DNA from: Geobacteraceae bacterium
GTDB taxonomy: Bacteria; Desulfobacterota; Desulfuromonadia; Geobacterales; Geobacteraceae
DNA length: 64,000 nt
Reading direction: 5' to 3'
NCBI GenBank assembly: GCA_024281055.1
Contig: JAMXLF010000035.1
Location: 1 to 64,000, forward strand
Shown: positions 1 to 30,215 of the stretch, piece after piece
How positions within the stretch are numbered: position 1 is the stretch's first letter
Layout of the letters: each line of letters starts with the position of its first letter
The notes under the pieces: generated by a model
The model's database searches: none
Told to the model about the DNA's origin: nothing
The model's input: the letters and a program-made list of their open reading frames with translations, nothing else
Translations under genes and position numbers: made by a program

Positions 1-44
1 CCCTCTCCTATAATTTTTTATTTACGAGCATCGGAGCACCATCC

Positions 45-686
45 ATGGGATGTTTCATCACATTTGAAGGGATCGAGGGGTGCGGCAAGACCACCCAGCT
101 CAGGCTTCTTGCCGGACACCTTGAACAACGCGGTCTGACGGTGCAGGTGACGAGGGAACCGGGAGGATGCCCCATCGCCGACCAGGTGCGGAGTATCCTC
201 CTCGATGCCGCCAACCGGACCATGGAACCGATGGCCGAACTCTTCCTCTACGCCGCGGCCCGCGCCCAGCATGTTGCGGAAATCATCAAGCCTGCACTGG
301 AAGCTGGGATCATTGTCCTCTGCGACCGGTTCACCGACGCCACCATCGCCTACCAGGGTTACGGGAGGGGACTCAGCCAACCGGTCATCACCGAACTCAA
401 CCGCCTGGCAACGCACGGAGTCAGCCCTGACATGACCGTTCTTCTTGACTGCCCCGTTGAAACGGGGCTGGAGAGGGCTTTCGCTCGCATCAACAACACC
501 CGCGGCGCCCGTGAAGAGCGTTTTGAACTGGAAGCGGCCGAATTTCACCTTCGGGTACGGGACGGTTACCTTCAGCTGGCACGGCAGGACCCGGACCGGT
601 TCATCGTCGTTAACGCGGCCGGCAGTGTTGCCGAGGTTGAAAAGGCCGTCAGGACAGCGGTTCTTGCCAGACTAACCGGAGCCTGA
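45..686 (+). CDS. tmk: Thymidylate kinase (dTMP kinase)
   Basis: This cytosolic enzyme phosphorylates dTMP to dTDP with ATP, feeding DNA synthesis. The 213-residue protein has the usual family length. Visible motifs are the P-loop GIEGCGKT (residues 9-16), REPGG (37-41), the DRF dTMP-binding motif (94-96), AYQGYGRG (102-109) and an Arg-rich LID around 148-160. The ATG is preceded by GGAG at 33-36, eight bases upstream. It is the first of four tightly linked plus-strand genes. The holB start lies one base after the tmk stop, so the two are probably co-transcribed and translationally coupled. Confidence 0.97.
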   Translation: MGCFITFEGIEGCGKTTQLRLLAGHLEQRGLTVQVTREPGGCPIADQVRSILLDAANRTMEPMAELFLYAAARAQHVAEIIKPALEAGIIVLCDRFTDATIAYQGYGRGLSQPVITELNRLATHGVSPDMTVLLDCPVETGLERAFARINNTRGAREERFELEAAEFHLRVRDGYLQLARQDPDRFIVVNAAGSVAEVEKAVRTAVLARLTGA

Positions 687-12182: not shown

Positions 12183-13295
12183 CTACTCCTTTGCCGCCGC
12201 AGAATTGCCCGCAACCGCAGCGATGACCGCCGCCACATCCTGGTCGCTCATATGCGGCCCGATGGGAAGGCTCAGCACTTCTTGCGCCAGTCGCTCGGCT
12301 ACCGGAAACGAGCCGGGAGGATAACCGAGTCCCCGATAGGCCTCCTGGAGATGGGGCGCGACGGGATAGTGGATCAGCCAGCCGATGCCGCACCTATCGA
12401 GGCGTTCGGTCAGTTCCTGACGGGTGACAGCGCGCACCACGTAAAGGTGCCAGACCGGCTCTGCCCAATCCGGCGGACAGGGGAGCATCAAACCCGCATT
12501 CTGCAAAGCTTCGCTGTAATAGGCGGCTATCCGACGGCGCCGTTCGTTCCAGGTATCGAGGTGCTTCAGCTTGATGCGCAGCATGGCAGCCTGAAGCTCG
12601 TCAAGACGGGAATTGTACCCCATGGCTTCATGACGGTACTTGACGCTGGAACCGTAGTTCCGCAAGAGCCGGACCTTCTCGGCGAGCCTTGCGTCGTTGG
12701 TGACGACAGCACCGCCGTCTCCCATGGCGCCGAGGTTCTTGCCGGGATAGAAGCTGAACCCCGCGGCATCGCCAAGGCTCCCCGCTCTCCGCCCCTTGTA
12801 CCGGGCCCCGTGGGCCTGTGCCGCATCTTCGACGACCTTCAGACCATACCGGCTGGCAATCGTGTTAATCGGGTCCATATCCGCAGGCTGACCGTAGAGA
12901 TGGACCGGCATGATAGCCTTCGTACGGCCGGTGATCGCAGCCTCGACTTTGTCGGGGTGAAGATTAAAGGTCTGCTCGTCGGGTTCGACCGGCACCGGGG
13001 TCGCTCCCGCGTACGAAACGGCCAGCCAGGTGGCGATGTACGTATGGGTCGGGACGATAACTTCATCGCCAGGCCCTATTTCCATGGCACGCAGAATCAG
13101 GTGGAGCGCATCGAGACCGTTGCCGACGCCGACGCAATGACTCGCGCCGCAGTAAGCGGCATACTCGGCCTCGAATGATTCCAGTTCCCGCCCCAACAGA
13201 TACCACCCCGACTCCATGACCCGGTGCCAGACCGCATCGAGTTCGTCGCGCAACTCGAGATAGGGAGCCTTCAAATCGAGAAACGGAACCTGCAT
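12183..13295 (-). CDS. DegT/DnrJ/EryC1-type sugar aminotransferase (FdtB-like)
   Basis: This PLP enzyme aminates a keto-sugar nucleotide. Next to two FdtA-like ketoisomerases, the likely substrate is a dTDP-3-keto-6-deoxyhexose, giving the 3-amino sugar. The 370 residues start [12 protein letters not shown]. The PLP-linking lysine is K186 in YPGKNLGA, and D157 in EDAAQAHGA should hold the pyridine nitrogen. The ATG at 13295 has AAAGGAG upstream; a start at 13370 would run into the ketoisomerase gene. The genes for the dTDP-glucose precursor (rmlA/rmlB) are not in this window. The specific sugar is inference. Confidence 0.85.
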
Positions 13296-13326: not shown

Positions 13327-13752
13327 TCATACTTTTCCCCGTAACGCCCTGGCATCGCGGACGAATTCATCGTAGGTGCGGTAGTAGTCAGCCTCGTCGT
13401 AGACTTCCGAGGCCAGCACGAGACAGATGCCGCCTGATGAAAAATTGAGAATCTCCCGCCAGATCAACCGGGGGAGGTACAGCCCGTAATACGGCCTGTT
13501 GAGATTAACCACCTTGCGGTTGATCCCGTCATCCAGGAGCACGTCGAAACTGCCGCTCGCCGCCACGATGAGCTGCTGCAGATTCTTGTGGGCATGGCCC
13601 CCTCGCGTTTCGCCGCCGGGGACGTCGTAAAGGTAGTAAACCCGCGCGATGTCGAAGGGAACGTGTTCGCCGCCGTAAACAGGGGTAATGTTCCCGGAAA
13701 GGCTGTGGATCCGCGGCAACTCGATCACCGAGCAATCATAGATTGTGGACAT
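13327..13752 (-). CDS. FdtA-like cupin sugar 3,4-ketoisomerase, copy 1
   Basis: FdtA/QdtA/TylM-type cupins isomerise dTDP-4-keto-6-deoxyglucose to a 3-keto product. The 141-residue protein shows [14 protein letters not shown], where the His-x-His pair (H53, H55) corresponds to the catalytic strand of the family. The conserved [16 protein letters not shown] segment follows. Its ATG lies one base after the stop of its tandem paralogue. With the downstream DegT aminotransferase and the NeuD-like acetyltransferase it can form a complete dTDP-3-amino-sugar branch. Confidence 0.85.
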
Positions 13753-13753
13753 G

Positions 13754-14164
13754 TCAGACCTGCCCCTTCATGGCACGGAATTTCCCGTAATCACGCACGT
13801 AATCAGCCTCGGAATAGATGTCGGAGGCCAGGATGAGACAAAGGGAGTTGGTGGAGAAGTTCTCCAGGTCCCGCCAGATCATGCTCGGCACATAGAGCCC
13901 GTAGTAGGACCGGTTCAGGGAAAACACCCGTTTGTTGTTGCCGTCATCGACCACGACGTCGAAACTTCCGGAGACAGCAATTATAATCTCCTGCAACGTC
14001 CTGTAGGAGTGGCCGCCGCGAATCTCTCCCCCGGGTACGTCGTAAATCCAGTATGCCCTCCTGATCGCGAAGGGGATATTCCTGTCCCCCTCGATGAAGG
14101 TGAGATTGCCGCGGGGGTCCGAAATCTTCGGGAGTTCGATGATTTTGCACTCGTCTATCGTCAT
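13754..14164 (-). CDS. FdtA-like cupin, copy 2 (His-x-Tyr variant)
   Basis: This is a 136-residue tandem paralogue of the neighbouring ketoisomerase, sharing YDVPGGE-RGGH, SGSFDVVVDDG and YYGLYVPSMIWRDL. In this copy the second histidine of the His-x-His pair is tyrosine (H52, Y54). It could be a ketoisomerase with altered stereochemistry, an inactive partner in a mixed dimer, or a cupin with a different substrate. Nothing in the sequence suggests a pseudogene: length and spacing are normal. The order is acyltransferase-like, copy 2, copy 1, aminotransferase. Confidence 0.75.
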   Translation of the reverse strand: MTIDECKIIELPKISDPRGNLTFIEGDRNIPFAIRRAYWIYDVPGGEIRGGHSYRTLQEIIIAVSGSFDVVVDDGNNKRVFSLNRSYYGLYVPSMIWRDLENFSTNSLCLILASDIYSEADYVRDYGKFRAMKGQV

Positions 14165-14184: not shown

Positions 14185-15135
14185 TCAGGAAATATCCAGC
14201 TCATAGAAATCGTGGACCACCGACCGGGCGCCGAACATCTCCTTCTGATGGATCAGCCCTTCGTTCAGATAGGTCCCCCCCTCTTCCGTCGAAACGCCGA
14301 AACTCAGAAAACGATGCCCCGCATACAGGTCGTTGATCAGGTGATCAAGGATGATGTCGAGTGCCCCGACATCAAGCCCCCGGTCCGAATTGTACATGTA
14401 CTGGACATGAACCGCATGCCGGAAGTCGAAGGTGATCACCCCCGCCAGCATGTCATCACCCGCATAGGAGGCATGCAGTTTGATACCATCGGGAAAGCGC
14501 CCGGCGAGAAGTTCCATCTCCTCGCCGGTATGAACGGGAGCAACGTTGTGGCGCTCGCTCATCACCTTCCTGCCGATTTCGAAAAAGGTCCGGAAATCTC
14601 TGCTTTCCCTGACCACAATGTTGTTGCGTAACGCCTTGCGGATCCCTTCCCGTTTCCCCTTGGCAAATTTTGCCCTCTTGGGGAGATAAATGGCTGAGGA
14701 GGCATCGCGGCGATAAAGGCGAGCCTTATTGACGAAAAGGGCGTACAGGTCTTCCTCGGCCGGCACGGCATGAAAAATATGGGGGACCGGCTTGTAGACG
14801 AGTTTCGTCACCCCTTGCGTCCGCAGAAAATCGAGCAAAGCGGCAAACACCTTCAGCATGGTGGCCGTTTTCATCTCGGCACTGGTGACGACGCCGCCGT
14901 ACGTAAGGCCCCCATGACTGATGACGGTTCCGTCCTTGATGGTAGCCGGCATGACCGCGATCAAATGTTCCTTTTCATCGTAGCATAACAGGGAATGATC
15001 GATAAACCTGTCGGCATGGTATTCCATGTAGTCCCGACAAAAGAGGAACGTGCCGTTTTTGGATTCCGCTATGAATCTATCCCACGGTTCCTTGTGCGTA
15101 CGCTGGTATCTTTGAATATGCATTTCAGTTACCAT
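14185..15135 (-). CDS. FemAB/GNAT-like N-acyltransferase
   Basis: The 316-residue protein resembles the FemAB-like double-GNAT acetyltransferase group. It shows WDRFIAESKNGTFLF at the N-terminus, an HGGLTYGG segment, a basic linker (KRAKFAKGKREGIRKAL), then FFEIGRKVMSERHNVAPVHT and a C-terminal strand set ending in STEEGGTYLNEGL. Members of this group acylate amino groups on sugars or peptidoglycan. Here a role in decorating the nearby amino sugar is plausible but inferred. It starts with a 7-base overlap with the propeller gene; a second ATG four codons in is possible. Confidence 0.65.
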   Translation of the reverse strand: MVTEMHIQRYQRTHKEPWDRFIAESKNGTFLFCRDYMEYHADRFIDHSLLCYDEKEHLIAVMPATIKDGTVISHGGLTYGGVVTSAEMKTATMLKVFAALLDFLRTQGVTKLVYKPVPHIFHAVPAEEDLYALFVNKARLYRRDASSAIYLPKRAKFAKGKREGIRKALRNNIVVRESRDFRTFFEIGRKVMSERHNVAPVHTGEEMELLAGRFPDGIKLHASYAGDDMLAGVITFDFRHAVHVQYMYNSDRGLDVGALDIILDHLINDLYAGHRFLSFGVSTEEGGTYLNEGLIHQKEMFGARSVVHDFYELDIS

Positions 15136-16049
15136 GACTCGAGGACGGCATACCCGAAGCCCGATTCACCATAATTGTTGCCGTTGTAGAACATGTATAC
15201 CTTGTCCCTGTGCATCAGCATGCTCGGATATGCTATCATCGCCGAATCCCAGCCGGAGTCCGACCGGCCGATGCCTATTTCCCGGTCTTTCCTTACCCAC
15301 GTGATCCCGTCAGTCGACTCCGCATACCCGAGCACGAAACCCGATGAGATCGTGGCAATATAGTAATACATCTTATAGACGCCGTTATGTTTTATAACCT
15401 GGGGCCGCGCCACCCGGTATTCATCCGTGTTCGCGAAGTCGATGGCTGTCTCGAAGGTAGTGCCGAAATTGATCCCGTCCGGCGATTCCATGTACCGTAT
15501 GTTATATTTGGGATATTTCTTCCCGTCTATGGTGACGAATTCATAGCCGGCACCATACCAGGCCTTGAACACATTATCCTCGTAGATGACCGAGTGGATG
15601 ACCCTGAAAAACAGTTCCGCGTCGGTTCGGTCGGTGATCGGCACCCTGCTGTACCTGGTGAACGTAACGCCGCCGTCGTCGCTTATCGCAAGCCCGCCGA
15701 AGACGAAGAACTTCACCTTATAGCCGAGCTGGTAGCCGGCATAATACAGGTAGACCCGCTCCCCATGCCGTATCACGGCACACGGCACCACGCCGTTTTC
15801 GTCGAAGGCGCCATCGATGCCGATATCGAGAACAGGTTCAGGGGAAATCCCGACGATGTTGGCGGGATTCGCCGCTTCCACGTCGACGAATCCGACCCGA
15901 CTGACCCCCTTTTCATCACGAAAGCCCGAATAAATCCTGATGATTTCGTCATTGAGCAGAAGAGGCGTCGGCTGCAGGGCGTAATTGTGCGCCCAGGGGA
16001 ATTTCCCGCGCGGGTCAAAGATCAATCCCTTCTTGTTCCATCTCATCAC
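15129..16049 (-). CDS. Five-bladed beta-propeller glycosidase-like protein
   Basis: The 306-residue protein has no signal peptide. Repeated blade-like motifs (IIRIYSGFRDE, RVYLYYAGYQLG, FKAWYGAGYE, VYKMYYYIA, KVYMFYNGNNYG), each followed by SxDG or ExDG loops, are typical of GH43/GH130-like propellers. Acidic catalytic residues cannot be assigned with confidence. Cytoplasmic proteins of this type occur in O-antigen clusters, but I know of no established role. It is coupled to the FemAB-like gene downstream and follows the NeuD-like gene by one base. Confidence 0.6.
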   Translation of the reverse strand: MMRWNKKGLIFDPRGKFPWAHNYALQPTPLLLNDEIIRIYSGFRDEKGVSRVGFVDVEAANPANIVGISPEPVLDIGIDGAFDENGVVPCAVIRHGERVYLYYAGYQLGYKVKFFVFGGLAISDDGGVTFTRYSRVPITDRTDAELFFRVIHSVIYEDNVFKAWYGAGYEFVTIDGKKYPKYNIRYMESPDGINFGTTFETAIDFANTDEYRVARPQVIKHNGVYKMYYYIATISSGFVLGYAESTDGITWVRKDREIGIGRSDSGWDSAMIAYPSMLMHRDKVYMFYNGNNYGESGFGYAVLESW

Positions 16050-16724
16050 TTACTCCTTTATCCTGAAGAGGCGCAGACTTCCAACCTTCGATGCCGCCGT
16101 GGAAGGCTCCTGGTAGACCCCCCCCTCTTCAGTGTCCTTCTGAATGAGGGCACCGGCCCCGATGAAACAGTCCCTGGCCACCTTGATGTTGTTGATAATC
16201 GTGCTGTTTACCCCCAGAAAACAGTTCTCGCCGATCTCGCAGAAGCCGGAGACCACCACGTGGGAGGCGATGAAGCAGTTATCGTTGATCGTCGAGTTAT
16301 GGCCGATGTGGTTCCCGCTCCAGAGCACTACGTTGTTACCGATCGTGACGAAGGGCTGAATGGTATTGTCCTCAAAAATGAAGCAGTTTTCGCCGATGTC
16401 GGCATTACGCCAGACAAAAGCCCGGGAACTGACATAGCTGGCAAAGTGGTAGCACCTCTCCTTCAATGCCTGGTAAAGACGGGTCCTCACCCTGTTCAGC
16501 TTCGTCGAACTGACCGCTACGAAAGCCGTAAATTCTCCCGGGGGGAAATGATCCTCAAGGTGTTCCAGGGGAACAACCGGCAACTCGTAAAAGGTATCGC
16601 GGTCCAGGTACTCCTGCTCGACGCTGAAGCCCGCCACGTCGTAGTTCGAATCATGGGTAAAATATTCATAGGCGATGGCAGCCGTCTCGCCCGTTCCGAC
16701 TATGACAAGCCTGTTGGTTCCCAT
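16050..16724 (-). CDS. NeuD/PglD-like hexapeptide sugar O/N-acetyltransferase
   Basis: An N-terminal Rossmann-like domain binds the sugar nucleotide (RLVIVGTGETAAIAYEYF). A left-handed beta-helix of hexapeptide repeats from about residue 105 (IGENCFIFEDNTI, VTIGNNVVLWSG, IGHNSTINDNCFI) binds acetyl-CoA. The likely catalytic His lies in the GNHIGHNSTI segment. In this cluster it probably N-acetylates the dTDP-amino sugar made by the ketoisomerase and aminotransferase. The 224 residues match the family length. It heads the run of amino-sugar genes downstream of an SGNH-like gene. Confidence 0.8.
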   Translation of the reverse strand: MGTNRLVIVGTGETAAIAYEYFTHDSNYDVAGFSVEQEYLDRDTFYELPVVPLEHLEDHFPPGEFTAFVAVSSTKLNRVRTRLYQALKERCYHFASYVSSRAFVWRNADIGENCFIFEDNTIQPFVTIGNNVVLWSGNHIGHNSTINDNCFIASHVVVSGFCEIGENCFLGVNSTIINNIKVARDCFIGAGALIQKDTEEGGVYQEPSTAASKVGSLRLFRIKE

Positions 16725-16762: not shown

Positions 16763-17827
16763 TTATTTCCGTCTGTTCCGAACCCCGCCCGAACGGAGAT
16801 ATTCATCCGCTTGCGCGTATACCATCCGCAGACGCTCATCAACATTGTCCCGCGTCACATAAACCCCGAAATCTGCAGGCAAGCTCTCTGCCCCGCGGCC
16901 CGTAATCCGTCTCGCGATCAGCGTGCCGATGCGCGGATAAAAATGGTGCATGTCTATGTAATTCGATGTATCTGCCGTTATCGAATTGATATACATGAAA
17001 TTGCATACCCCCCCGAAAGCGCTTACCGCAGTGCGGAGCCACCGGGCGTAATCATCGAGCCTTCCTGCTTTGAGCATCAATTCATAAGCAGATTGCGATA
17101 TTGGCGTCGTAAAGACGATGAATTTAATACCGGGATTGTTACCGATCAACTCCTCGAATGTGTGGCTTAACTCCGTATCGTATTCATAATTTTTTGAATC
17201 GTATATAAAGGCGAACCTGTCCGCCTGTTGCTGCATAAGCATGGTGTGGGTAGGGCCGTCAATCGGCGCTACGCACTTGTTGTTATTTGTCCTGTCGTAA
17301 TAAAAAAATTTAAATTTCCTTTTTGCGGTTTTAACTGCCAGCCTGAAGGTATCCAGAGACAAAAGGATTTTCAAGCGATATAAAGGCTCATTTGACTTCC
17401 CCAAATAATAGTCGGGTGTTTTTGACCGATCTACACCCTTCTTGTTAGACCCATAAAAATCCAAACCTATTATCACATACTTCAGGTTAGGATTGTGCTT
17501 TTTAAAATAATCGATATATTTTCCGTATTCTTCTGGATATATCGAAGGTACTGCGTAATTGAAAGCCTTATAGCCGGTAAAATCCTGCTGATTTATATGC
17601 TCTGTTCTACTGCTACCAATAATAAGAGTATCATAACCATTGGTATTATACGTAATCTTGTTTGTTTTCTGCTGCCGTGCATCTATATCACAGGTAAATA
17701 TGTTATATTTATTGACGCCTTTAAAACACCACAAAGGATCGATGTAGTAATTGATTCCTGCAACTGTCAGCAACGCCATTGCCAGTGCGCATATTGTTCT
17801 AAACAACCATCTTTTATAACTGGCCAT
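16763..17827 (-). CDS. Membrane-anchored SGNH-like protein, AT-rich gene
   Basis: This 354-residue protein has one N-terminal membrane segment (about 8-26) and an exported domain. It shows the SGNH block I IIGSSRTEH (Ser73 by alignment with its neighbours) and a C-terminal D-x-x-H (IDMHH, D292 and H295), the pattern expected of an SGNH esterase/acyltransferase. Similar proteins partner MBOAT acyltransferases in exopolysaccharide acetylation. It is separated from the other four SGNH genes by three glycosyltransferase genes. Its DNA is strikingly AT-rich (about 28% G+C at 17281-17340), unlike its flanks, suggesting acquisition by transfer. Confidence 0.7.
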   Translation of the reverse strand: MASYKRWLFRTICALAMALLTVAGINYYIDPLWCFKGVNKYNIFTCDIDARQQKTNKITYNTNGYDTLIIGSSRTEHINQQDFTGYKAFNYAVPSIYPEEYGKYIDYFKKHNPNLKYVIIGLDFYGSNKKGVDRSKTPDYYLGKSNEPLYRLKILLSLDTFRLAVKTAKRKFKFFYYDRTNNNKCVAPIDGPTHTMLMQQQADRFAFIYDSKNYEYDTELSHTFEELIGNNPGIKFIVFTTPISQSAYELMLKAGRLDDYARWLRTAVSAFGGVCNFMYINSITADTSNYIDMHHFYPRIGTLIARRITGRGAESLPADFGVYVTRDNVDERLRMVYAQADEYLRSGGVRNRRK

Positions 17828-19919: not shown

Positions 19920-20876
19920 TCAGGCACTCCGTTCACTGCGTGCGGCCAGGGCGTTCATCAGTTTGAACCAGGGGCTGCATACCTTGTAGGCTGGGAGAAG
20001 CCGCTGAAAACTCCTCAGATCGCAGTGGGTGGCAATCTTCTGCTCAACAGTCGCCTGGTCGAGAAGACCCTGCCGGTAAAGCTTCCATATCCGGTAGCTC
20101 TGGTTATAGCGCAAAAACCACCGGGCAATCGCCCCCTGACGAATGTACTCCCGGTCAAGGTAGTCGTCCAGAAGCAGGAACATGTCGTCGATGTGTACCA
20201 GGTCCTGGACATTCTTCCGGGTCTGCTGGCCGGTATGAACCCGGAAAGAGGTGAGAGGCTCGCCGAGGTAGGCAAATCGCCCCTGTTCGAGGAGGTGGAG
20301 CCACATCTCCAGGTCGACGAGTTGCCGGTACCGGGGGTCGAAACCGCGCCCTGTCTGTTCCTTGCGGAACATGACCACCGACGGCTCCCCGATCAGATTT
20401 CGCCCCTCCCGGATGCACCGGTTGATGATCACCGTCCCCTCAGCAACTGTTTTGTCGCGGAACCGGGATTCCGTTTTCAAAACGGTCCCGGTCTCGTCGA
20501 TGAAGTGTCGGGCCGACGCCGCGAGGGAAACGGTACGGTCCGAATCGAGCACGTCGACCATTCGCGCGAGGGCGTCCGGCGAGACGAGAAGGTCGTCGGA
20601 AAACAGGAAGCGAATGTACTCCCCCCGACTCAACTCCAGGCAAAAGTTCCAGTTCGGCACCATTCCCCGGTTTCTCTCGTTCAGGACAGGAACGATCCGG
20701 CGGTCGCGCGCCGCGTAATGGCTGATGACCGCACGGCTTTCATCCGTAGAACAATCGTCAACGATGATGAGCTCGAAATCGGTGAAAGATTGGCCCAGAA
20801 TCGAATCGATCGCTGCAGGGAGAAACCGGGCGCAATTGTACGAAGGTATGCAGACACTGACTTTAGGGCAGCTCAC
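19920..20876 (-). CDS. Family 2 glycosyltransferase (tandem copy 2)
   Basis: This 318-residue paralogue of the downstream gene has VSVCIPSYNCARFLPAAIDSIL, the VDDCSTDES and LFSDDLL acidic motifs, and the shared RQLVDLEMWLHLLEQGRF block. The start is GTG at 20876, which forms a 4-base GTGA overlap with the stop of the SGNH-like gene and has GAGG six bases upstream. This makes translational coupling likely and ties glycosyl transfer to the acylation genes in one transcript. Sugar specificity is unknown. Confidence 0.85.
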   Translation of the reverse strand: MSCPKVSVCIPSYNCARFLPAAIDSILGQSFTDFELIIVDDCSTDESRAVISHYAARDRRIVPVLNERNRGMVPNWNFCLELSRGEYIRFLFSDDLLVSPDALARMVDVLDSDRTVSLAASARHFIDETGTVLKTESRFRDKTVAEGTVIINRCIREGRNLIGEPSVVMFRKEQTGRGFDPRYRQLVDLEMWLHLLEQGRFAYLGEPLTSFRVHTGQQTRKNVQDLVHIDDMFLLLDDYLDREYIRQGAIARWFLRYNQSYRIWKLYRQGLLDQATVEQKIATHCDLRSFQRLLPAYKVCSPWFKLMNALAARSERSA

Positions 20877-21955
20877 GGAAACCTCACTGTTTCGAATATC
20901 TTCTGAGCAGCCTTCCAGGTCCAGTGGGTATCGTCAGCAAAAAATACGTCCTTTTCGCCACGGCGAAGCTCCTCCGCCAGAATCGCCTTGGTATCGATGA
21001 GCACATACCTCCGGGGCAGCTTCCGCAGTTCATCGAAAAAAACGCTCTGAGGAAATTTGTTCTTGACGATGTAGCCGCTGTAGAGATCGTACTTGTCGAC
21101 ACACGGCATGAAATAGAGCTTAATCCCCTTCTTCATCAGCATGTCGCTGAGCAGGTTCAGATTTTCGTTCATCTTGCCGACGGTCGCCGGCGTTGCCGAG
21201 AAAATGGAGGACACATCATCCCTGTAGAACAGCAAAGTATTCGGCTTGGAATTATTGAAGAACGGCTGGGTGAGAGTTACCTGAAAAACCTTGCTGAAAA
21301 ATGCATTACTGGAAAACCGGTAAAGGAGGCTGTACTCCAGGAACCTGTAGTTACCGCTGTTTATAAACTGCACTCCCTTGGTATGGGTACCCGGCTTGGC
21401 AGTTACGTTGTATCCCATTCTCTTATGGCGCAGCAATTCCTCCATGCCCATGTTTTTCGAGAAGTCAACGTCGCGCGCAAACCTCCCGATGGACAGTTTT
21501 TCCGAAGAACTGAGGAGCAGATATTTCGGACGGAGAGTGTCCAGGTATCCATTGTTGTACATTATCGCAATGGACTCCATGAAATCGGGCTCCTGGAACG
21601 GCTCGATGTTCAGTACATTGCAATCGTTGATCGAGGCCATATAATCCTGATAGTATCTGTTCCGGCCGCCGCCACCGCCGTTGGAAAACGAATCGCCGAA
21701 CGTCAGTATCCGTATCGGCTGGCCGGCATACTCCTGCTGCTCGATGTGCTTCCTGGGCAGGTCACTGGAGTTCTTTCGGGGTTGCTTGATCCATGGGATA
21801 TACCCCAGCCGGGCCAGATCCCCCCCGGCACTGTTGGCGCCCAAGAGCCTCTCGGTGTAGCCCTTCCAGATAACAAAGTTGAAGATTACGAACAACAGGA
21901 TAAGCCCTAAAAACCAATAGACAAAACTTCGATACACACCCATGCCCGTTCCCAT
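20873..21955 (-). CDS. AlgX/AlgJ-like SGNH protein (GDS/DxxHW), copy 1
   Basis: The 360-residue protein has an N-terminal membrane anchor (about 12-30) and an exported SGNH domain. Block I is TFGDSFSNGGG (Ser89) and the C-terminal dyad is FADDTHWTW (D341, H344), close to the DHHW/AlgX-AlgJ pattern. It is a tandem paralogue of the next gene, sharing KGIKLYFMP-VDKYDLYS and IDTKAIL-EE-R-GEKD. AGGA lies seven bases before the ATG. It probably completes acyl transfer to the glycan in the periplasm after an MBOAT exports the acyl group. Confidence 0.8.
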   Translation of the reverse strand: MGTGMGVYRSFVYWFLGLILLFVIFNFVIWKGYTERLLGANSAGGDLARLGYIPWIKQPRKNSSDLPRKHIEQQEYAGQPIRILTFGDSFSNGGGGGRNRYYQDYMASINDCNVLNIEPFQEPDFMESIAIMYNNGYLDTLRPKYLLLSSSEKLSIGRFARDVDFSKNMGMEELLRHKRMGYNVTAKPGTHTKGVQFINSGNYRFLEYSLLYRFSSNAFFSKVFQVTLTQPFFNNSKPNTLLFYRDDVSSIFSATPATVGKMNENLNLLSDMLMKKGIKLYFMPCVDKYDLYSGYIVKNKFPQSVFFDELRKLPRRYVLIDTKAILAEELRRGEKDVFFADDTHWTWKAAQKIFETVRFP

Positions 21956-22040: not shown

Positions 22041-23114
22041 TCAGTCGAATCTGCATTTTTCAAAAACCAATTTCTCAGCTTTGCTGGTCCAGTGCGAGTC
22101 ATCAGCATAAAAAATATCCTTTTCGCCTTTACGCACTTCTTCCAAAAGTATCGCTTTCGTATCGATGAGAGAGTATTTTTTCGGCAACACCCTCAACTCA
22201 TCGAAAAAGGGGTTTCTCGGATAGGGATTGCCAATAATGAATTCGCTGTATAGATCATACTTGTCGACGACAGGCATAAAATAAAGCTTGATGCCTTTCT
22301 TCGCGAGGATTGAAGCAAGAGTATTGAAATTATCGTTCAGACGTTCGACGGTATCTTTGTTTACCGCGGTAATATTGCCGATCTCCTCATGAATAAACAG
22401 GAGTTGTCGCGGGTCGCGGGTACTGAACAACGGCTGCGACAGCTTCCGGCGATAGACCTTCTTCCTGAAAGCGTTGTCCGAAAAATGATAGAGCACATTG
22501 TAATAGACGTATTTGAAATTGCCATTGTTTATAAAACCTATCCTCGGAAGCGCGAAAAGAGAATAGTGTATGTTTTCGTAATAGGCCCGGATGTTATCCA
22601 TGCTATCGGTGTACCGCAGGTTCATTTCGCGCGCGAAACGGGGGATACAGAACCTTACGGCCGATTCTATGATCACATACCTGGGTCGCATCCTGTCCAG
22701 GTATCCACTGTTCATCAGCACTGCAAGCGTGGAGAACGGGGAAAAAAACTCGAACAGGTCGTCGGTTGGGTAGGGAGGGACATTGAGCACGGAGCAGTTA
22801 TTCAGTGTAGCGATGTAATCCTGATAATAGTTGTTTTCCCCCTCCCCGCCTCCCATGGAGAACGAATCACCGATTGTGAGAACATCGATCTTCTGACCCC
22901 GGTATTCGTTCATGAGAATGTGACGTCGCGGCAGGTTGTTGACGGCTTTCCGGTACTGCTTGGAGCCGAGGGCGTATCCCATGCGCGCAAGGTCGCCACC
23001 GTCGAACTTCTTGGTAAGAAGGACTTCGGTGCAGCATTTCCACGTTACGTAATTGAACATCAAGAACATGATCAGTGACGACAGTACCAATACGGCAAAC
23101 GTCTTAAAGCGCAT
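22041..23114 (-). CDS. AlgX/AlgJ-like SGNH protein (GDS/DxxHW), copy 2
   Basis: A paralogue of the gene at 20873-21955, about 357 residues from the chosen start. An N-terminal anchor (MRFKTFAVLVLSSLIMFLMF) is followed by TIGDSFSMGGG (Ser84) and the C-terminal YADDSHWTS dyad (D338, H341). I chose the ATG at 23114, which begins at the membrane helix as in the paralogue. A TTG at 23171 and an ATG at 23156 are alternatives with no better ribosome-binding site. Duplication suggests two acceptor sites or two MBOAT partners. Confidence 0.78.
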   Translation of the reverse strand: MRFKTFAVLVLSSLIMFLMFNYVTWKCCTEVLLTKKFDGGDLARMGYALGSKQYRKAVNNLPRRHILMNEYRGQKIDVLTIGDSFSMGGGEGENNYYQDYIATLNNCSVLNVPPYPTDDLFEFFSPFSTLAVLMNSGYLDRMRPRYVIIESAVRFCIPRFAREMNLRYTDSMDNIRAYYENIHYSLFALPRIGFINNGNFKYVYYNVLYHFSDNAFRKKVYRRKLSQPLFSTRDPRQLLFIHEEIGNITAVNKDTVERLNDNFNTLASILAKKGIKLYFMPVVDKYDLYSEFIIGNPYPRNPFFDELRVLPKKYSLIDTKAILLEEVRKGEKDIFYADDSHWTSKAEKLVFEKCRFD

Positions 23115-23183
23115 ACCGACCCCACGGACCGACAAGACAAAGATCACGAACCGCATGAAGGAGCACGGCAATCTTTAGCAGAT

Positions 23184-24128
23184 TCAATGTAACACCTTTG
23201 TTGTGGTGATTTTTCTGTTGAGCTCGCCGATCAGAAAGTCCGCACCCTTGATCGACAGATGTCCGTAATCGCTGTAATTGGTGAAATCGTCACGAAAGGC
23301 ACGATATTCTTCCTCGTTGAAATCACACACGGTGTCCTGTGGTGTAAAGAGCGTGTCCATTTTTTCCCGAAACTGTTGATATCGTCCGTGTAAGGCTGTG
23401 AATACCTTGTACGGTTGCGGAAAATAGAACGCAAGAATCCGCACATGCTTCCGTCGTGCCACCCCCAGCAACTCGGCCAGTTCCTCGTAGGCGCGCGGCT
23501 CGACTGTCAGCGGGCTATCGGTCCGTGCAATGTTACTGGCGAAAGTGTCGATTTCCTTTTGCGGGTCGACATGTTTCAGCATGTTTTTTTTCGCCAGGTT
23601 GCACTTGCCGTCATAACTGTCAGCGAAGGTGTCCTTCTGGGGAACCAGTGCCCGTTCGATTCTGTCCCAGTAGTACTGAAACGTAAACGTCGATCCCAGG
23701 GCCGACCAACACATGCGGGGCGTCAGGCGGCGGTCGTTGAGCCCTGACTCCCTGGTCAGATAGGGATCCAGGCAGACGATGAGCAGCTTTATATTCCCCC
23801 GTTCGATGGCATTCTCGGCGCACAGCCTTACCTGGCTGGCATTTCCCCCGGCAATGGACAGATTATAGGTCTTGTACCGCTGAATCCTGGCGGGATCCAG
23901 TTCGTCGGACAGAGAAGGACCTATGATGATGCCATCGTAGTTGGCCGGAATGTATCTGAACGAAAGAAGATACTTGGAGATCATTTCCGCGGTATAGATG
24001 CGTATCTTGCGGTGGTTCACATCCCTGAACAGGCCGAAGTCGTCCCGGTAATAGTTGAAGGCGGCAAATCCGGCCGCGACAACGATGGAAATGACCAGGC
24101 TCTGGATGAAAAACCGTTTAAAAGTCAA
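23184..24128 (-). CDS. Membrane-anchored SGNH-like protein (GPS/DYGH)
   Basis: The 314-residue protein has an N-terminal anchor (residues 7-25), block I IIIGPSLSDE (Ser72) and a C-terminal NYSDYGHLS dyad (D287, H290). It differs from the two AlgX-like neighbours in having GPSxSD instead of GDSF. The start is TTG, overlapping the MBOAT stop by 11 bases with AAGGAG about ten bases upstream, so it should be translated with that MBOAT. It is the strongest candidate for a dedicated partner of the MBOAT at 24118-25599. Confidence 0.75.
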   Translation of the reverse strand: MTFKRFFIQSLVISIVVAAGFAAFNYYRDDFGLFRDVNHRKIRIYTAEMISKYLLSFRYIPANYDGIIIGPSLSDELDPARIQRYKTYNLSIAGGNASQVRLCAENAIERGNIKLLIVCLDPYLTRESGLNDRRLTPRMCWSALGSTFTFQYYWDRIERALVPQKDTFADSYDGKCNLAKKNMLKHVDPQKEIDTFASNIARTDSPLTVEPRAYEELAELLGVARRKHVRILAFYFPQPYKVFTALHGRYQQFREKMDTLFTPQDTVCDFNEEEYRAFRDDFTNYSDYGHLSIKGADFLIGELNRKITTTKVLH

Positions 24129-25599
24129 AATACAGGAACTCCTTTGACCGCAAGGAATTGAGGAATACCAGATTAACGATGAACAGAAGGATGGCTGCGT
24201 ACATGTGCAGTTTCGTCGGCGAGAAGGAATCCTTTGCCGTCGTCTGGAGGGAATTTTTCCCGAGCAGTGCCAAGGTCAGAGCTCCCCCCAGCACCCACGC
24301 TTCCCCCCGGACATCAAGATTGACGAAGACCTTGCCGAACTGCACCCATCCCCTGGCAAGGCCGCCCAAGAGACGGCCGATCAGGTCGGGCAGCACGACA
24401 CCGTTCAGGCAGGCCATCCCGCGCAGCACCTTCATGGCATCGCCCCATGATTTGGCCCGGAAGAAGACGAACGTCGCATTGACGAACTGAAAGGTGACAA
24501 ACCAAGCCAGCACGGGGTTCATCCGCAATTTTTTCCTCTTCCATGCATGGTTCGTCACCAACGCAAGACCGTGGAGGCCTCCCCAGGTGATGAACGTCCA
24601 GCCCGCACCATGCCAGAAACCGGATACCAGCATGGCCAGCAGCGTGGCCACCATGGCGTTGGCAAAGGTCACCCTGCCGAAGGAGCGCAGAATCGGGGTA
24701 TAGACATAGGTGGTGATGAAGTTGGTCAGCGTCATATGCCACCGTTTCCAGAAATCGATGATATCCGTCGCCCTGTAGGGACTGTTGAAGTTGACCGGCA
24801 GGGCGATATTGAACATCCAGCCGATGCCGATAGCCATGTCGCTGTAACCGCTGAAATCGAAGTACAACTGCAGCGTGTACGACAGGCTCGTGTACCAGGC
24901 TTCGCAGAAATTCAGCGTTGTTGCCGTGTCAAACCCCGGATTGGCAACCTGGGACAAGGTGTCGGCGATGAGAACCTTCTTGGAGAGGCCGAGCAGAAAA
25001 AGGAAAAGCCCCGTAGAGAGATTCCGGTAACTCACAATCTTGTTTCTCCTGCGGTCAAACTGGGGCATCATCTCCTTGTGGTGGAGAATCGGGCCCGCCA
25101 GGAGATGGGGGAAAAAGGTGACGAACAGCGCGTAGTTGAGCAGTTCCTTTTCCTCGACAAGCCCCTCGTAGGCATCGACAAGAAAGGCAATCTGGGTGAT
25201 GGTGAAGAAGCTGATGCCGAGGGGCAGCACAATATGCAGAAGGGGCAGTTGCGAGCCCAGAAGCATGTTCGCGTTACCGATGAAAAAGTCCATGTACTTG
25301 AAGTAGCCGAGGAGGAGGATGTTTCCTGCCAGCCCGACCACGAAAATGATTTTCCGGGAAACAGCCTGTTTTCCCCGGGTCCCACTGTCAGCCACGAGGT
25401 GCCCGACGGTGTAATTGAAGAGAATCGAGCCGAGAATGAGCGGCAGGTACCGGACGTTCCACCAGCCGTAGAAAAAGAGCGAGGCACACAGCAGCCAGAC
25501 ATTGGCTGCCACAGCCAGTCGCATCCTGTTAAGGAAGAAGTAGCCGATGAGTGTTACGGGCAGAAACAGCAGGATGAACTCGAAGGAACTGAAAAGCAT
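24118..25599 (-). CDS. AlgI-type MBOAT O-acyltransferase, copy 1
   Basis: This multi-pass inner-membrane protein of 493 residues belongs to the MBOAT family that moves acyl groups to extracytoplasmic glycans (AlgI, DltB). The conserved FWKRWH histidine is H288 and the active-site WHGAGW histidine is H330. FFPHLLAGPILHH and LYFDFSGYSDMA are classic AlgI stretches, and the C-terminus FLYFDF matches the AlgI end. It has the same length and long identical stretches as the next MBOAT upstream, so the two are recent tandem duplicates. It is coupled to the SGNH gene downstream. Confidence 0.92.
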   Translation of the reverse strand: MLFSSFEFILLFLPVTLIGYFFLNRMRLAVAANVWLLCASLFFYGWWNVRYLPLILGSILFNYTVGHLVADSGTRGKQAVSRKIIFVVGLAGNILLLGYFKYMDFFIGNANMLLGSQLPLLHIVLPLGISFFTITQIAFLVDAYEGLVEEKELLNYALFVTFFPHLLAGPILHHKEMMPQFDRRRNKIVSYRNLSTGLFLFLLGLSKKVLIADTLSQVANPGFDTATTLNFCEAWYTSLSYTLQLYFDFSGYSDMAIGIGWMFNIALPVNFNSPYRATDIIDFWKRWHMTLTNFITTYVYTPILRSFGRVTFANAMVATLLAMLVSGFWHGAGWTFITWGGLHGLALVTNHAWKRKKLRMNPVLAWFVTFQFVNATFVFFRAKSWGDAMKVLRGMACLNGVVLPDLIGRLLGGLARGWVQFGKVFVNLDVRGEAWVLGGALTLALLGKNSLQTTAKDSFSPTKLHMYAAILLFIVNLVFLNSLRSKEFLYFDF

Positions 25600-25675: not shown

Positions 25676-27157
25676 TTAGAACTGAAAATAGAGAAACTCG
25701 CTGACCTTGCTCATGTTGAAAAGAGCCCAGAACGCCACGATCACGATGAACGCGAAACTTTTCCAGCAGGGCTTGAATCGGCTGGTCAATTGGTTGGAGT
25801 TCCAGGCCGTCAGAATTATGGCGAACGACACAAGCGTAGTCCACAGAACCGTATCAACATGGGCATCGCCCTTGACTGCCTCGAGCCACTCCTTGCTGAA
25901 CTTTACGTGGAGGTCGGCAAGGAAGGGAAGTTTGGCGTAGCTGCGCGGCAACGTCACTCCGCTCAACCCGAACATCCCCCTGAAGACTTTCATGGCGTCG
26001 TGCCAGTTTTTCGCCCGAAAGAAGACAAAGGCCATGTTCACGAAGTTGAAGGTAATGAACCAGGCGAGCACTGTCGGCATCCGGATCTTGAGCTTTTTCC
26101 AGTTGTGATTCACCACCAGCGCCGCCCCATGGAGCGAGCCCCAGATGATGAAGGTCCACCCGGCCCCATGCCAGAGGCCGGAGATGAACATGGCAATGAA
26201 GATGGCCACCATGGACTTGGCAAAGGTAATCCTTCTGAAGGACCGGACGATCGGTGTGTACAGGTAGGTTGTGATGAAGTTGGACAGCGTGATGTGCCAC
26301 CGTTTCCAGAAATCGATGATGTTAACGGCTTTGTATGGGCTGTTGAAGTTGATGGGGAGCCGGATATTGAACATGAGGCCGACGCCGATGGCCATGTCGC
26401 TGTACCCGCTGAAATCGAAATAGAGCTGGAACGTGTAGGCAAGGCTCGCCACCCATGCCTCGAGGAGATTGAGGGTAGTGGCGGTGTCGAACCCGGCCTT
26501 AGCCCAGACGGAAAACTGGTCGGCGAGGATGATCTTCTTGAAAAGGCCGACAAAGAAGAGAAAGAAGCCGAGAGAAAGGTTCTTGTAGTTGAGCACCTTG
26601 TTCCGTGTGCGGTCGAACTGGGGCATCATCTCCTTGTGGTGGAGGATCGGTCCTGCCAGGAGGTGCGGGAAGAACGTGACGAACAGGGCGTAGTTGAGGA
26701 GTTTGCGCTCCTCCACGAGCCCTTCGTACGCATCGACCAGGAAGGCGATTTGGGTAATGGTAAAAAAACTTATCCCGAGCGGCAGTACGATATGAAGGAG
26801 CGGGAGGTTTGTCCGAACGAGGGCGTTCACGTTACCGATGAAAAAATCCATGTACTTGAAGTACCCAAGGAAAAGGACGTTGACGACGATGCCGAAGACG
26901 AAGATGCCCTTCTTGGAGACAACCTGTTTCTTGAGGGCATCGGTATCGGCGATCAGGCTGCCGATCGTGTAATTGAAGAGAATTGAGCCGAGAATGAGCG
27001 GCAGATAGACGATATTCCACCAGCCGTAAAAGAACAGAGAGGCGAACAGAAGCCAGGAATTGGAGGCAACCGTCAGGCGTTGCCTGTTGAGGAAGAAATA
27101 GCCTACCAGTGTGATCGGCAGGAAAAAAAACAAAAACTCATACGAATTGAAGAGCAT
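25676..27157 (-). CDS. AlgI-type MBOAT O-acyltransferase, copy 2
   Basis: This 493-residue paralogue of the downstream MBOAT has matching residue numbering: H288 in FWKRWHIT and H330 in WHGAGW. It has the same HIVLPLGISFFTITQIAFLVDAYEG stretch in divided form, and a FLYFQF C-terminus. I chose the ATG at 27157 (MLFNSYEF), aligning with copy 1 (MLFSSFEF). An upstream in-frame extension to 27289 has no membrane character and lies in the spacer after the carrier protein. Position directly after the ligase-carrier pair suggests it draws acyl groups from the carrier. Confidence 0.92.
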   Translation of the reverse strand: MLFNSYEFLFFFLPITLVGYFFLNRQRLTVASNSWLLFASLFFYGWWNIVYLPLILGSILFNYTIGSLIADTDALKKQVVSKKGIFVFGIVVNVLFLGYFKYMDFFIGNVNALVRTNLPLLHIVLPLGISFFTITQIAFLVDAYEGLVEERKLLNYALFVTFFPHLLAGPILHHKEMMPQFDRTRNKVLNYKNLSLGFFLFFVGLFKKIILADQFSVWAKAGFDTATTLNLLEAWVASLAYTFQLYFDFSGYSDMAIGVGLMFNIRLPINFNSPYKAVNIIDFWKRWHITLSNFITTYLYTPIVRSFRRITFAKSMVAIFIAMFISGLWHGAGWTFIIWGSLHGAALVVNHNWKKLKIRMPTVLAWFITFNFVNMAFVFFRAKNWHDAMKVFRGMFGLSGVTLPRSYAKLPFLADLHVKFSKEWLEAVKGDAHVDTVLWTTLVSFAIILTAWNSNQLTSRFKPCWKSFAFIVIVAFWALFNMSKVSEFLYFQF

Positions 27158-27334
27158 TACCAACAACCTCTTAGCGTTATTTTCCAGGTGGTTAACAGAG
27201 TGGGCCGGCATGCGCACAGCTACACCCTGCTGCCCAAGGCAAAGCGGTACAAGCGTCCGCCGGGCAGCACACGAGCCGATTGCCGTCACCCGCTGAACGA
27301 CAATCGGCCCGTAGTGAAAAGACCGGAAAGGGTA

Positions 27335-27572: not shown

Positions 27573-29201
27573 TCATATCTCCAATGTTGAAATGTCGCCG
27601 GCGTCCGTTCCAAGGTACCGGGCCTTGAGCACGCGGCGCATGATCTTGCCGCTCTTGTTCTTAGGAATGACGTCAGTAAAGACAATCTCCTGCGGTGTTG
27701 CGATGGAGGAGAGTTTATTGGTGACGTGCAGCCGTATCTTCAGTTCGAGCTCCCGTGAATAGGAAAACTGGCTGTGCAGGGTAACGAAAGCGACCACCTT
27801 CTCGAACAGCAGGTCATCTGGTGCCCCGATCACGCCGGACTCGGCGACTTCGGGGATCTCCAGGAGAGCGCTCTCGATCTCGAAGGGACTGATGAGGTGC
27901 CCGGCGGTGTTGATCACGTCGTCGCTCCTCCCCAGGAACCAGAAGTAGCCATCCGCATCCCGGTAGGCGGTATCGCCGGAAAAGTAATAGCCGCCGCGGA
28001 ATTTCTGCCGATAGACCTCATCGTTGTTCAGGTAGGTGACAAACATGGAAGGCCACCCCGGTTTGGCGCAGAGGTTCCCCTGTTCCTTGTCCGGCATTGT
28101 GGAGCCGTCGTCGGCTATGATCGCCGCCTCGATTCCGGTCACCGGCTTACCCATTGAACCGGGGCGCACTTCCAGCCCGGGGCGGTTGCTGATCATGATG
28201 CCCCCGGTTTCGGTCTGGAACCAGGTATCGTAGATCTCTCTGCCGAGGGTGCGGCGCGACCAGTGGATCACCTCCGGGTTGAGGGGCTCGCCGACACTGA
28301 AGATGTGCTTGAGGCGTGCAAGGTCGAACCTGCCGAACAAGGCCGGATCTTCCCGCAGCAGCATCCGGAGGGCTGTCGGTGCGGTGTACCAGATGGTCAC
28401 CTGCTCCTGTTCGAGAAGCGTGAACCAGTGCTCGGCGTTATAGCCGCCGCCGAAATGAACCTGGGTCACGCCGAGGCTCCAGGGACCGATGATCCCGTAG
28501 GAGGTGCCGGTCACCCACCCCTGGTCGGCCGTGCACCAGTAAATTTCATCCTCGGCGAGACAGAGCACCTCCCGTGCAGTCTGGTTCTGATGGAGGACAC
28601 TGCGATGGACGTGCTGCACCCCCTTCGGCTTGCCCGTGGAACCCGAAGTGTAGTGGAGGACCGATGGTGTGTCCGGTGTAGTCAGGGGAGCGGTGAAGTC
28701 CGACGAAGCGTCGCGCATCAGTTGCCGGTAGCTCAGGACGTCACCGGACTGATGCTCGTCAATGTCCACCACGATAATGTGGCGCAGACCCGGCAGCCGG
28801 TCACGGACGTTGGCGATCTTCTTGACGAAGCTCTTCTTGGTGATAACCCCCCGCGCCTGCGAATCACCGAGGCGATCGAGAAGCGCCTCCTCGCCGAAGT
28901 TGGAGAAGAGCGTGCCGGCAACCACCCGGAGCTTGAGCGCGCCGAGAAAGGCAAAGAACTGCTCGGGCATCTTGGGCAGAAAAGTGAAAAAGACATCACC
29001 GGCGGCATAGCCAAGGGCTTGGAGAACGTTGGCAAATCTGCTGCTTTCGGCGTCCAGATCACTGAAGGTGTAGTCGGTCCGTTCCATGGCGGGAGAAATC
29101 CAGCGCATGGCCACCTTGTCTCCCCGCCCCTGCTCGCACTGCTGTCGCGTGCAAATATGGCCGATATTGAACTGATTGTTGCATATCAACCTATCTTCCA
29201 T
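27573..29201 (-). CDS. Acetyl-CoA-synthetase-like acyl-AMP ligase
   Basis: This 542-residue adenylate-forming enzyme should activate a short acyl acid with ATP and pass it to a thiol. Motifs are the P-loop TSGSTGKPKG (185-194), ADQGWVTGTSYGIIGP (225-240) typical of acetyl/propionyl-CoA synthetases, WFQTETGG (327-334), SGD (408-410), GRSDDVINTAGH (424-435) and catalytic Lys519 in NKSGKIMRR. It is shorter than E. coli Acs. The gene abuts a carrier-protein gene and overlaps an SGNH gene by 11 bases. I infer loading of the carrier rather than CoA. A plain acetyl-CoA synthetase role is the main alternative. Confidence 0.85.
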   Translation of the reverse strand: MEDRLICNNQFNIGHICTRQQCEQGRGDKVAMRWISPAMERTDYTFSDLDAESSRFANVLQALGYAAGDVFFTFLPKMPEQFFAFLGALKLRVVAGTLFSNFGEEALLDRLGDSQARGVITKKSFVKKIANVRDRLPGLRHIIVVDIDEHQSGDVLSYRQLMRDASSDFTAPLTTPDTPSVLHYTSGSTGKPKGVQHVHRSVLHQNQTAREVLCLAEDEIYWCTADQGWVTGTSYGIIGPWSLGVTQVHFGGGYNAEHWFTLLEQEQVTIWYTAPTALRMLLREDPALFGRFDLARLKHIFSVGEPLNPEVIHWSRRTLGREIYDTWFQTETGGIMISNRPGLEVRPGSMGKPVTGIEAAIIADDGSTMPDKEQGNLCAKPGWPSMFVTYLNNDEVYRQKFRGGYYFSGDTAYRDADGYFWFLGRSDDVINTAGHLISPFEIESALLEIPEVAESGVIGAPDDLLFEKVVAFVTLHSQFSYSRELELKIRLHVTNKLSSIATPQEIVFTDVIPKNKSGKIMRRVLKARYLGTDAGDISTLEI

Positions 29202-30204
29202 CTCCGTCTCCCCCTGTTCCGGCGTATATCTCGGCCAGGATCTGTCGCGCCACTACCGGCCGGTAGTGGGAATTCTCGTAGTAGTTGTGCTTGTCCTGTG
29301 TAAACCGGTTGATGCCGGAATAGTCATACACCCGCGACGTACCGAAGATTTCCCGCAGGCAAGCCAGGTCTTCCCTGCTCAGGTATTGCTGGTCGTAGTT
29401 CGGGCTGATGACGATGCGGTAGTCTGTCCGATTCTCGGCGAGGATCTTCCCGATATCCTTCAAATAGGCCAGCTGAATCTTCTGGATCACCGGAGCGGTA
29501 TAGTGTTTCGAAAGGTCCCGCGGATAAAAAACCGACGAAAGATTCTTGTAATATTTTTCTCGGTTTTCGGCAATTGATTTTTCCAGTTTCGCATTAAATT
29601 TGTCGCCGCTCACAGGATCATACTGAAGGCATTCCCCCAGCATTTTCGTAAATGGCTGCCTGACCTTTCCGGTAAGCTTGTAATCCAAGTATCCGATAAA
29701 AAAAGGCATTTCAATGAACGACCGAAAAAAGGTGAGGTGAAAGTCAAGGGGGTTTTCACCGGAAATCTTCGGGTGCTTGATAAAGAGCAGCCCGCTACTG
29801 TTGAATGGCATGGACATCAGCTGCGCATCCAGGATAATGAGGGCATTCCGTATCGGCATGTGGCGTCTCGAAAGAAACAGGAATTTGCGATGAATGCCGT
29901 AGAGCGATTCATTCATGGCGGCGTAGTGCAAAATGCGCGGCGAATCGATAAATCTGCACCAGTCACTGGTAAAAAACGCTATTGATCGTGAATTGCCAAA
30001 AATAAACGAATCATATTTCCGGTCAGTGTAATTCTGAATAAGGGTTTCGGTCTGATTGTAGTCCCAGTTGTAGTTGACCCGGGGGTCATTGTAGTGGTGT
30101 TTATAGGTATAGATAACTTCAAAGGGATCGAATGCCAGGTAAACGGCCAGCATGATGAACAGCGGCAATAGGATGAGAAGGATTTTTTTGAACAGCATGG
30201 CCAT
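29191..30204 (-). CDS. Membrane-anchored SGNH-like protein (GNS/ExxH variant)
   Basis: The 337-residue protein has an anchor at about 7-25 and an exported domain. Block I is FIFGNSRSI (Ser72) and the C-terminal dyad position reads ENSHY (E310, H313), with Glu where relatives have Asp. I chose the ATG at 30204; a second ATG two codons in is equally plausible. Translating from 30303 would add a tail that overlaps the MBOAT gene. Its end overlaps the ligase start by 11 bases and it follows MBOAT copy 3, which it probably partners. Confidence 0.75.
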   Translation of the reverse strand: MAMLFKKILLILLPLFIMLAVYLAFDPFEVIYTYKHHYNDPRVNYNWDYNQTETLIQNYTDRKYDSFIFGNSRSIAFFTSDWCRFIDSPRILHYAAMNESLYGIHRKFLFLSRRHMPIRNALIILDAQLMSMPFNSSGLLFIKHPKISGENPLDFHLTFFRSFIEMPFFIGYLDYKLTGKVRQPFTKMLGECLQYDPVSGDKFNAKLEKSIAENREKYYKNLSSVFYPRDLSKHYTAPVIQKIQLAYLKDIGKILAENRTDYRIVISPNYDQQYLSREDLACLREIFGTSRVYDYSGINRFTQDKHNYYENSHYRPVVARQILAEIYAGTGGDGDGR

Positions 30205-30215
30205 GGTTAATCGCT

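Follow-up and report, generated by a model that had tools for sequence, protein, structure and literature searches.

Reciprocal loss of active-site residues in tandem FdtA-family cupins suggests a split-site heterodimeric 3,4-ketoisomerase

The minus strand of the window (64,000 nucleotides of contig JAMXLF010000035.1 from a Geobacteraceae bacterium) contained two full-length FdtA-family cupins (PF05523) in tandem, referred to as A (upstream) and B (downstream). Both matched nearly the whole profile (cut-off, 23 bits), and no other PF05523 match was found in the source genome. The A-B junction was TGA C ATG, with stop and start 1 base apart, and A and B shared 54% identity (139 columns). The preliminary description of two adjacent, full-length cupins with most sequence blocks in common, one base apart and with the motifs GGHAH and GGHSY, was confirmed by the sequence and the profile. 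The features of the locus were as follows.

12183..13295, minus strand: DegT/DnrJ/EryC1/StrS aminotransferase, probable C-3 aminotransferase (PF01041, E 2.9e-127)
13327..13752, minus strand: putative B subunit, FdtA-family cupin, HxH copy, 141 aa (PF05523, E 2.3e-50, 170.2 bits; QdtA/WlaRB alignment; clade B)
13588..13596, minus strand: His53-Ala54-His55 codons (HxH) of B (sequence, alignment)
13696..13698, minus strand: Ser19 codon of B (family position 17; usually Arg in single-gene relatives; sequence, alignment)
13754..14164, minus strand: putative A subunit, FdtA-family cupin, HxY copy, 136 aa (PF05523, E 3.4e-53, 179.4 bits; 2pa7 alignment; clade A)
14003..14005, minus strand: Tyr54 codon of A, TAC (family position 53; second His in single-gene enzymes; sequence, alignment)
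14111..14113, minus strand: Arg18 codon of A (family position 17; Arg in the A copies of 93/93 distinct tandem pairs, window counted)
14185..15135, minus strand: FemAB/GNAT-like protein directly upstream of A (PF13480, E 4.6e-08)
15129..16049, minus strand: GH130-like protein, below the Pfam cut-off (PF04041, 21.9 bits; cut-off, 26)
16050..16724, minus strand: NeuD/PglB/VioB-type sugar acyltransferase (TIGR03570, 177.9 bits; cut-off, 160.8)

The nearest PDB entries to the aminotransferase (phmmer) were transaminase 2oga (1.9e-138) and QdtB 3frk (8.9e-135), and its start at 13295 was set from the end-to-end match with QdtB. A predicted C-3 aminotransferase of the QdtB/FdtB kind therefore lies beside the ketoisomerase pair, as in the pathway for dTDP-3-amino-3,6-dideoxyhexoses (Fuc3N/Qui3N). 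In this pathway, the sugar must undergo one keto-isomerisation before it reaches the 3-aminotransferase. The source genome also has, on another contig, RmlA and RmlB, the enzymes that form the substrate dTDP-4-keto-6-deoxyglucose, and the pair, from its predicted activity, would supply the keto-isomerisation between RmlA/RmlB and the aminotransferase. The NeuD/PglB/VioB-type acyltransferase likely performs a later step on the same sugar. The genes for the FemAB-like, GH130-like, and NeuD-type proteins (14185-16724) recurred, all or in part, near the pair in L001 (0.6-3.1 kb), L016, L017, and L026, and, whole or in part, near a single-gene copy in L149, suggesting one sugar-modification cassette. 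Farther along, the window contained three MBOAT O-acyltransferases on the minus strand (24118-25599, 25676-27289, and 30216-31676), two AlgX-like SGNH proteins (20873-21955 and 22041-23171), and three proteins with no Pfam match (16763-17827, 23184-24128, and 29191-30303); this region looks like repeated modules for polysaccharide O-acylation.

Residue numbers below are those of the 2PA7 chain; those of the FdtA paper are two lower (in 2pae, titled H49N, the changed residue is chain residue 51). In the excerpts drawn on from a review (PMC2943079), FdtA is a dimer in which strands 2 and 3 are swapped into the other subunit, the base is proposed to be His49 (chain 51), and His51 (chain 53), reported as strictly conserved among FdtA relatives, may shuttle protons; Arg at 95 (chain 97) is associated with retention at C-4, and His with inversion. 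The solved structure of a QdtA double mutant (Y17R/R97H, from the entry title) and the title of a 2015 paper on product stereochemistry together mark position 17 as an active-site determinant. The ketoisomerase literature drawn on consisted of excerpts of PMC2943079, PMC9095892, and PMC8040287.

Alignment with 2pa7, QdtA, and WlaRB placed Arg18 of A at family position 17, His52 at the first His, and Tyr54 at position 53. The first His was present in both proteins. The catalytic strand reads RGGHSY (RGGHSYRTLQE) in A versus RGGHAH in B, so that B has the second His in the same chain and A does not; the residue changed in A is chain residue 53 of 2pa7, His51 in the paper numbering. On the other hand, the Arg (FdtA, WlaRB) or Tyr (QdtA) found at position 17 of the same chain in the single-gene enzymes is retained in A (Arg) but not in B (Ser). 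This reciprocal loss, in which the HxH copy lacks Arg17 and the HxY copy keeps it, was overlooked by the preliminary description.

Among the characterized enzymes, WlaRB from Campylobacter jejuni (5TPU), a 3,4-ketoisomerase, ranked first in the PDB by sequence match to B and second by match to A, and has Arg17, HxH, and Arg97, the set that the pair holds jointly; in WlaRB and in the 3,4-ketoisomerase HCAN_0198 from Helicobacter canadensis (7N67), however, these residues are unsplit in a single chain. FdtA from Aneurinibacillus thermoaerophilus (2PA7), a dTDP-4-keto-6-deoxyglucose 3,4-ketoisomerase, has the Pfam family and fold in common with the pair, Arg17 with A, and the first His with both. 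Its domain-swapped dimer, as described in the excerpts of PMC2943079, would be a further likeness if strands are swapped in the pair too, as the fusion models below suggest. FdtA differs in being a homodimer from one gene, with Arg17 and HxH in one chain and His (not Arg) at chain position 97. QdtA from Thermoanaerobacterium thermosaccharolyticum (4O9E) is similar in family, fold, and Arg97, and its pathway partner QdtB resembles the adjacent aminotransferase, but it has Tyr at position 17 and HxH within the same chain. FdtD from Shewanella denitrificans (4MZU), a ketoisomerase, likewise has a fused FdtA domain, but the partner is an N-acetyltransferase and not a second FdtA domain. Among the search listings of an open-access library that does not include key primary papers, no account of an FdtA-type isomerase with two genes or as a heterodimer was found.

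Tandem pairs were collected in two ways. A scan of bacterial genomes seeded with A, from which the best 80 of 163 confirmed loci were taken, required that one of six short A peptides match (about family positions 1-8, 36-43, 53-60, 70-77, 94-101, and 124-131). This choice of peptides favours Trp38, Tyr53, and Arg97 of A, and does not affect Arg17 or any part of B; the claim for position 53 therefore rests on the Pfam-family samples. Because this first scan had been seeded with A, searches with the Pfam model only were run in two sets of 247 genomes, one from the window's own phylum and one from that of a Flavobacterium. Pseudomonadota, the phylum of a Sphingomonas, supplied a third Pfam sample of 398 genomes, 45 of which gave matches with E at or below 1e-20. 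The centre genomes of the Flavobacterium and Sphingomonas searches (G247 and G248) were picked through loci of the A-seeded scan. Copies were typed with profile cut-offs of 35-70 bits; among weak PF05523 matches of the own-phylum search, L095-L111 contained no domain at 35 bits, and further weak matches were left out. Besides the window, 95 pair rows were obtained, and removal of near-copies (L004 of L003, L011 of L008, and L130, the pair of a centre genome itself and identical with L020 from the same genome, Flavobacterium denitrificans) left 92 distinct pairs, or 93 with the window, including those from the best 80 of 163 A-seeded loci. Of the 20 pairs from the family searches, 19 were new.

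The tandem arrangement of HxY/F (once HxK) and HxH thus recurred in 92 distinct pairs besides the window, and cannot be attributed to chance. With the window counted, A had Arg17 in 93/93 pairs and the second His in 0/93 (Tyr, Phe, and one Lys instead), while B had HxH in 93/93 and lacked Arg17 in 91/93, the two exceptions being L036 and L200. Among tandem pairs from the best 80 of 163 A-seeded loci, A with Arg17 and Tyr/Phe53 was followed by B with HxH in 75/75, and B lacked Arg17 in 74/75. The Pfam-only pairs (n = 20, without the window) gave the same pattern: His53 in 0/20 A and 20/20 B copies, and Arg17 in 20/20 A and 1/20 B copies. Fisher tests gave 3e-10 and 6e-9; since the copies are related, these extreme values are evidence of long retention, not of separate origins.

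In the A copies of the 92 distinct pairs, Arg17, Arg48, His51, Trp96, and Tyr121 were invariant (92/92), Arg97 was present in 91/92, and position 53 was Tyr or Phe in 91/92; position 17 of B took nine different residues. Mean identity over the 93 pairs was 62% for A versus 58% for B. Identity within the strand 2-3 segment was 0.69 for A versus 0.56 for B, with 0.58 for both cores (17 pairs, thinned at 80% identity), but the A segment ranked only 16/124 among shifted segments (6/124 in the A-seeded sample, 52 pairs after thinning). The nearness of the A strand 2-3 segment and the B core to the single-gene consensus was not significant: 22/124 shifts were as high, and 22 to 30 of 124 over four settings. 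Tyr37, tried as a third marker on a swapped strand, was dropped, because Phe at this position was found in both A (7/92) and B (28/92) and was common in single-gene copies. Within the 96 pair rows, 30 B copies had Phe37 (e.g. L003, L008, and L172) and can be seen as a subclass, in which position 97 was mostly Ala (25/30). Ala97 was found in 23/92 B copies, and these may give another product, position 97 being the published stereochemistry switch.

The second His was kept in 95 of the 98 single-gene copies typed, 50 from the two Pfam searches and 48 from Pseudomonadota. Copies of at least 150 bits had His53 in 19/20 and Arg17 in 19/20, weaker copies His53 in 28/30 and Arg17 in 21/30, and Pseudomonadota copies His53 in 48/48 and Arg17 in 43/48; no tandem pair was found in this last sample (398 genomes, 48 copies). 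Lone HxY cupins, which the preliminary description had named as the refuting case, were sought, and none of the three single-gene copies without the second His (3/98) was of A type (0/3); Trp38 of A was absent from all three. L160 (HRY) was a weak match whose frame is interrupted by an internal stop, and L169 is close to a contig edge and gapped at position 53, leaving L199 (HxL; intact, outside clade A, in a genome bin 62% complete) as the sole clean single-gene loss of the second His. L199 (7074-7463, plus strand) has His-Ala-Leu at the HxH site and stands immediately before a DegT aminotransferase. A lone copy with Arg17, Trp38, and HxH (L069) also fell outside clade A, and a single-gene copy with Ser17 (L148) occurs in G247, which holds a pair too. 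The proposed co-occurrence of HxY with HxH copies held: in the 92 distinct pairs besides the window and in the two loci where A had no adjacent B, no A-type HxY/F cupin was found without an HxH partner in the same cluster. B was about 1 kb downstream in one of these loci (L013), and 6.6 kb off on the opposite strand, with Ala17 and HxH, in the other (L041).

A 141-row tree grouped the 50 A copies and the two separated A copies in a single clade (SH-aLRT 96), with no A copy outside it, and had a branch (SH-aLRT 95) with all 50 B copies on one side. The tree was built by a quick method from few columns and has many open forks; about one in three of the A-seeded loci was kept, along with named loci, rows below 90 bits or rich in X were excluded, and about half of the weak single-gene copies were randomly excluded. 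The losses in A and those in B are each inherited, from one A ancestor and one B ancestor, so that the counts above are not independent events. The pair clade is present in Bacteroidota, Thermodesulfobacteriota, Nitrospirota, and Fibrobacterota (record titles); L019 is a pair from Mucilaginibacter. Identities among A copies co-varied with those among B copies (Mantel r 0.40, 0 of 1000 permutations; 93 pairs). Stop and start were within 10 bases of each other or overlapped in 77/95 pair rows, and A and B were fused in 10/95. In these 10 of the best 80 of 163 loci, both lay in one open frame with A always first and a linker of 23-31 aa, and at least 5 changes were needed on the tree of pairs. 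The Kapaibacterium loci L002 (3881-8200) and L009 (1055-4887) contained both a pair and a complete single-gene FdtA (Arg17, HxH) within 4 kb, suggesting that the two make different products and are perhaps not interchangeable.

Two natural fusions were modelled with AlphaFold2: L032 (pLDDT 87.5, pTM 0.86) and the Dysgonomonas fusion L022 (pLDDT 84.7, pTM 0.83). The two models share one alignment of 10 natural fusions and are not independent; a single-chain alignment was not used for folding, since its consensus suggested that A chains had been aligned on the B half. In both models, each half matched entire FdtA/QdtA chains, for L032 among others 2pa7_B over 134 residues (rmsd 1.9, Z 18.2) and 4zu7_G over 136 residues (rmsd 1.6, Z 19.4). 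On the other hand, compact one-barrel cupins aligned, in both models, from the first strands of A into the core of B over only ~100 residues: KdgF 5fpz at 6..277 of L032 (101 residues, Z 12.1) and 6..273 of L022 (100 residues, Z 11.6), and Thermococcus phosphomannose isomerase 7zvm at 12..283 and 12..279, respectively. These alignment ranges support a swapped pair, in which one barrel would consist of the N-terminal strands of A and the core of B, as read from the first and last aligned residues. Such a barrel would place Arg17 of A beside HxH of B, a proximity that we infer from the swap.

The losses in A and B, which would be odd for separate enzymes, coincide in one site of a heterodimer if strands 2 and 3 are swapped. 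A and B therefore probably make up an obligate heterodimer, a dTDP-4-keto-6-deoxyglucose 3,4-ketoisomerase in which a single composite site is complete. The site made of position 17 of A and positions 51 and 53 of B read Arg-His-His in 92/92 distinct pairs (and in the window), the converse site (position 17 of B, positions 51 and 53 of A) in 0/92, and the full set was present within one chain in A 0/95 and B 2/95 pair rows. With strands 2 and 3 swapped as in FdtA, Arg17 of A would enter the site on the B core that has both histidines, and this complete site would perform the isomerisation of the 4-keto to the 3-keto sugar, while the loss of the second His (A) and that of Arg17 (B) would share the other site, rendering it inactive or altered. 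The 3-keto sugar would then pass to the QdtB-like aminotransferase of the next gene. The product would probably be a dTDP-3-amino-3,6-dideoxyhexose; B has Arg97, for which the published rule predicts retention at C-4, and the sugar would be of the gluco (Qui3N) type if this rule holds. The preliminary description had offered A as the non-catalytic half of a heterodimer: co-occurrence and fusions support the heterodimer half well, while "non-catalytic" is probably wrong, as the site of B seems to receive both Arg17 and swapped strands from A. Its other proposal, that A by itself is an enzyme of altered stereochemistry, found no support, although such a function is possible for the second site.

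Several observations do not fit this split-site heterodimer easily. The invariance of His51, Arg48, Trp96, and Tyr121 in A, with Arg97 nearly invariant, exceeds what a dead site needs, and the second site may, judging from the first His of A and the restriction of position 53 to Tyr/Phe, not be dead. Arg17 is not universal in the family (Tyr in QdtA; absent from 9/30 weak and 5/48 Pseudomonadota copies), so that B alone might work, and the B copies of L036 and L200 keep it. Tyr37, likewise on a swapped strand, does not follow the A/B split, the comparison of segments with the single-gene consensus was not significant, and the intact L199 indicates that the second His may not be essential. A domain-swapped homodimer that became a two-gene heterodimer in one ancestor, with the full Arg-His-His set retained in one composite site and both substitutions shifted to the other, and with this constrained HxY/F site taking on new chemistry or regulatory binding of a sugar nucleotide, so that a heterodimer would have two different sites, is conceivable but rather unlikely.

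An asymmetric heterodimer with two working sites, one canonical and isomerising, and the other catalyzing a different isomerisation or epimerisation or binding a nucleotide sugar as a regulatory site, appears improbable: the constraint on His51 and position 53 of A speaks for it, but the partner residue of that second site, position 17 of B, takes nine residues, and a single keto-isomerisation suffices before the 3-aminotransferase. It is more doubtful still that A and B are separate homodimers, acting sequentially or on different substrates and adjacent only through serving one sugar. Each chain is a full-length domain, some single-gene members lack Arg17 (Tyr17 in QdtA; the 9/30 weak copies), and A and B stand apart within one cluster in L041 and L013; however, the reciprocal loss in nearly all pairs, repeated A-B fusion, the fit of the fusion models to a swap, and A-type HxY/F copies never being found without B in the loci examined all stand against it. 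A decaying or redundant HxY paralogue, as the loss of a residue that FdtA relatives are reported to conserve strictly (excerpts of PMC2943079) might imply, is scarcely credible and was rejected from the mean identity of A (62%), its five residues invariant in 92/92, and its presence in several phyla.

Such pairs are easily mistaken for a duplicated isomerase, or for an isomerase beside a broken copy of itself. If A and B are one split enzyme, expressing a single gene would give a false negative. If the split-site heterodimer is true, a pair clade of several phyla would gain a testable function, and the pair would be a clean natural case of domain swapping that lets a duplicated homodimer divide its active site between two genes.
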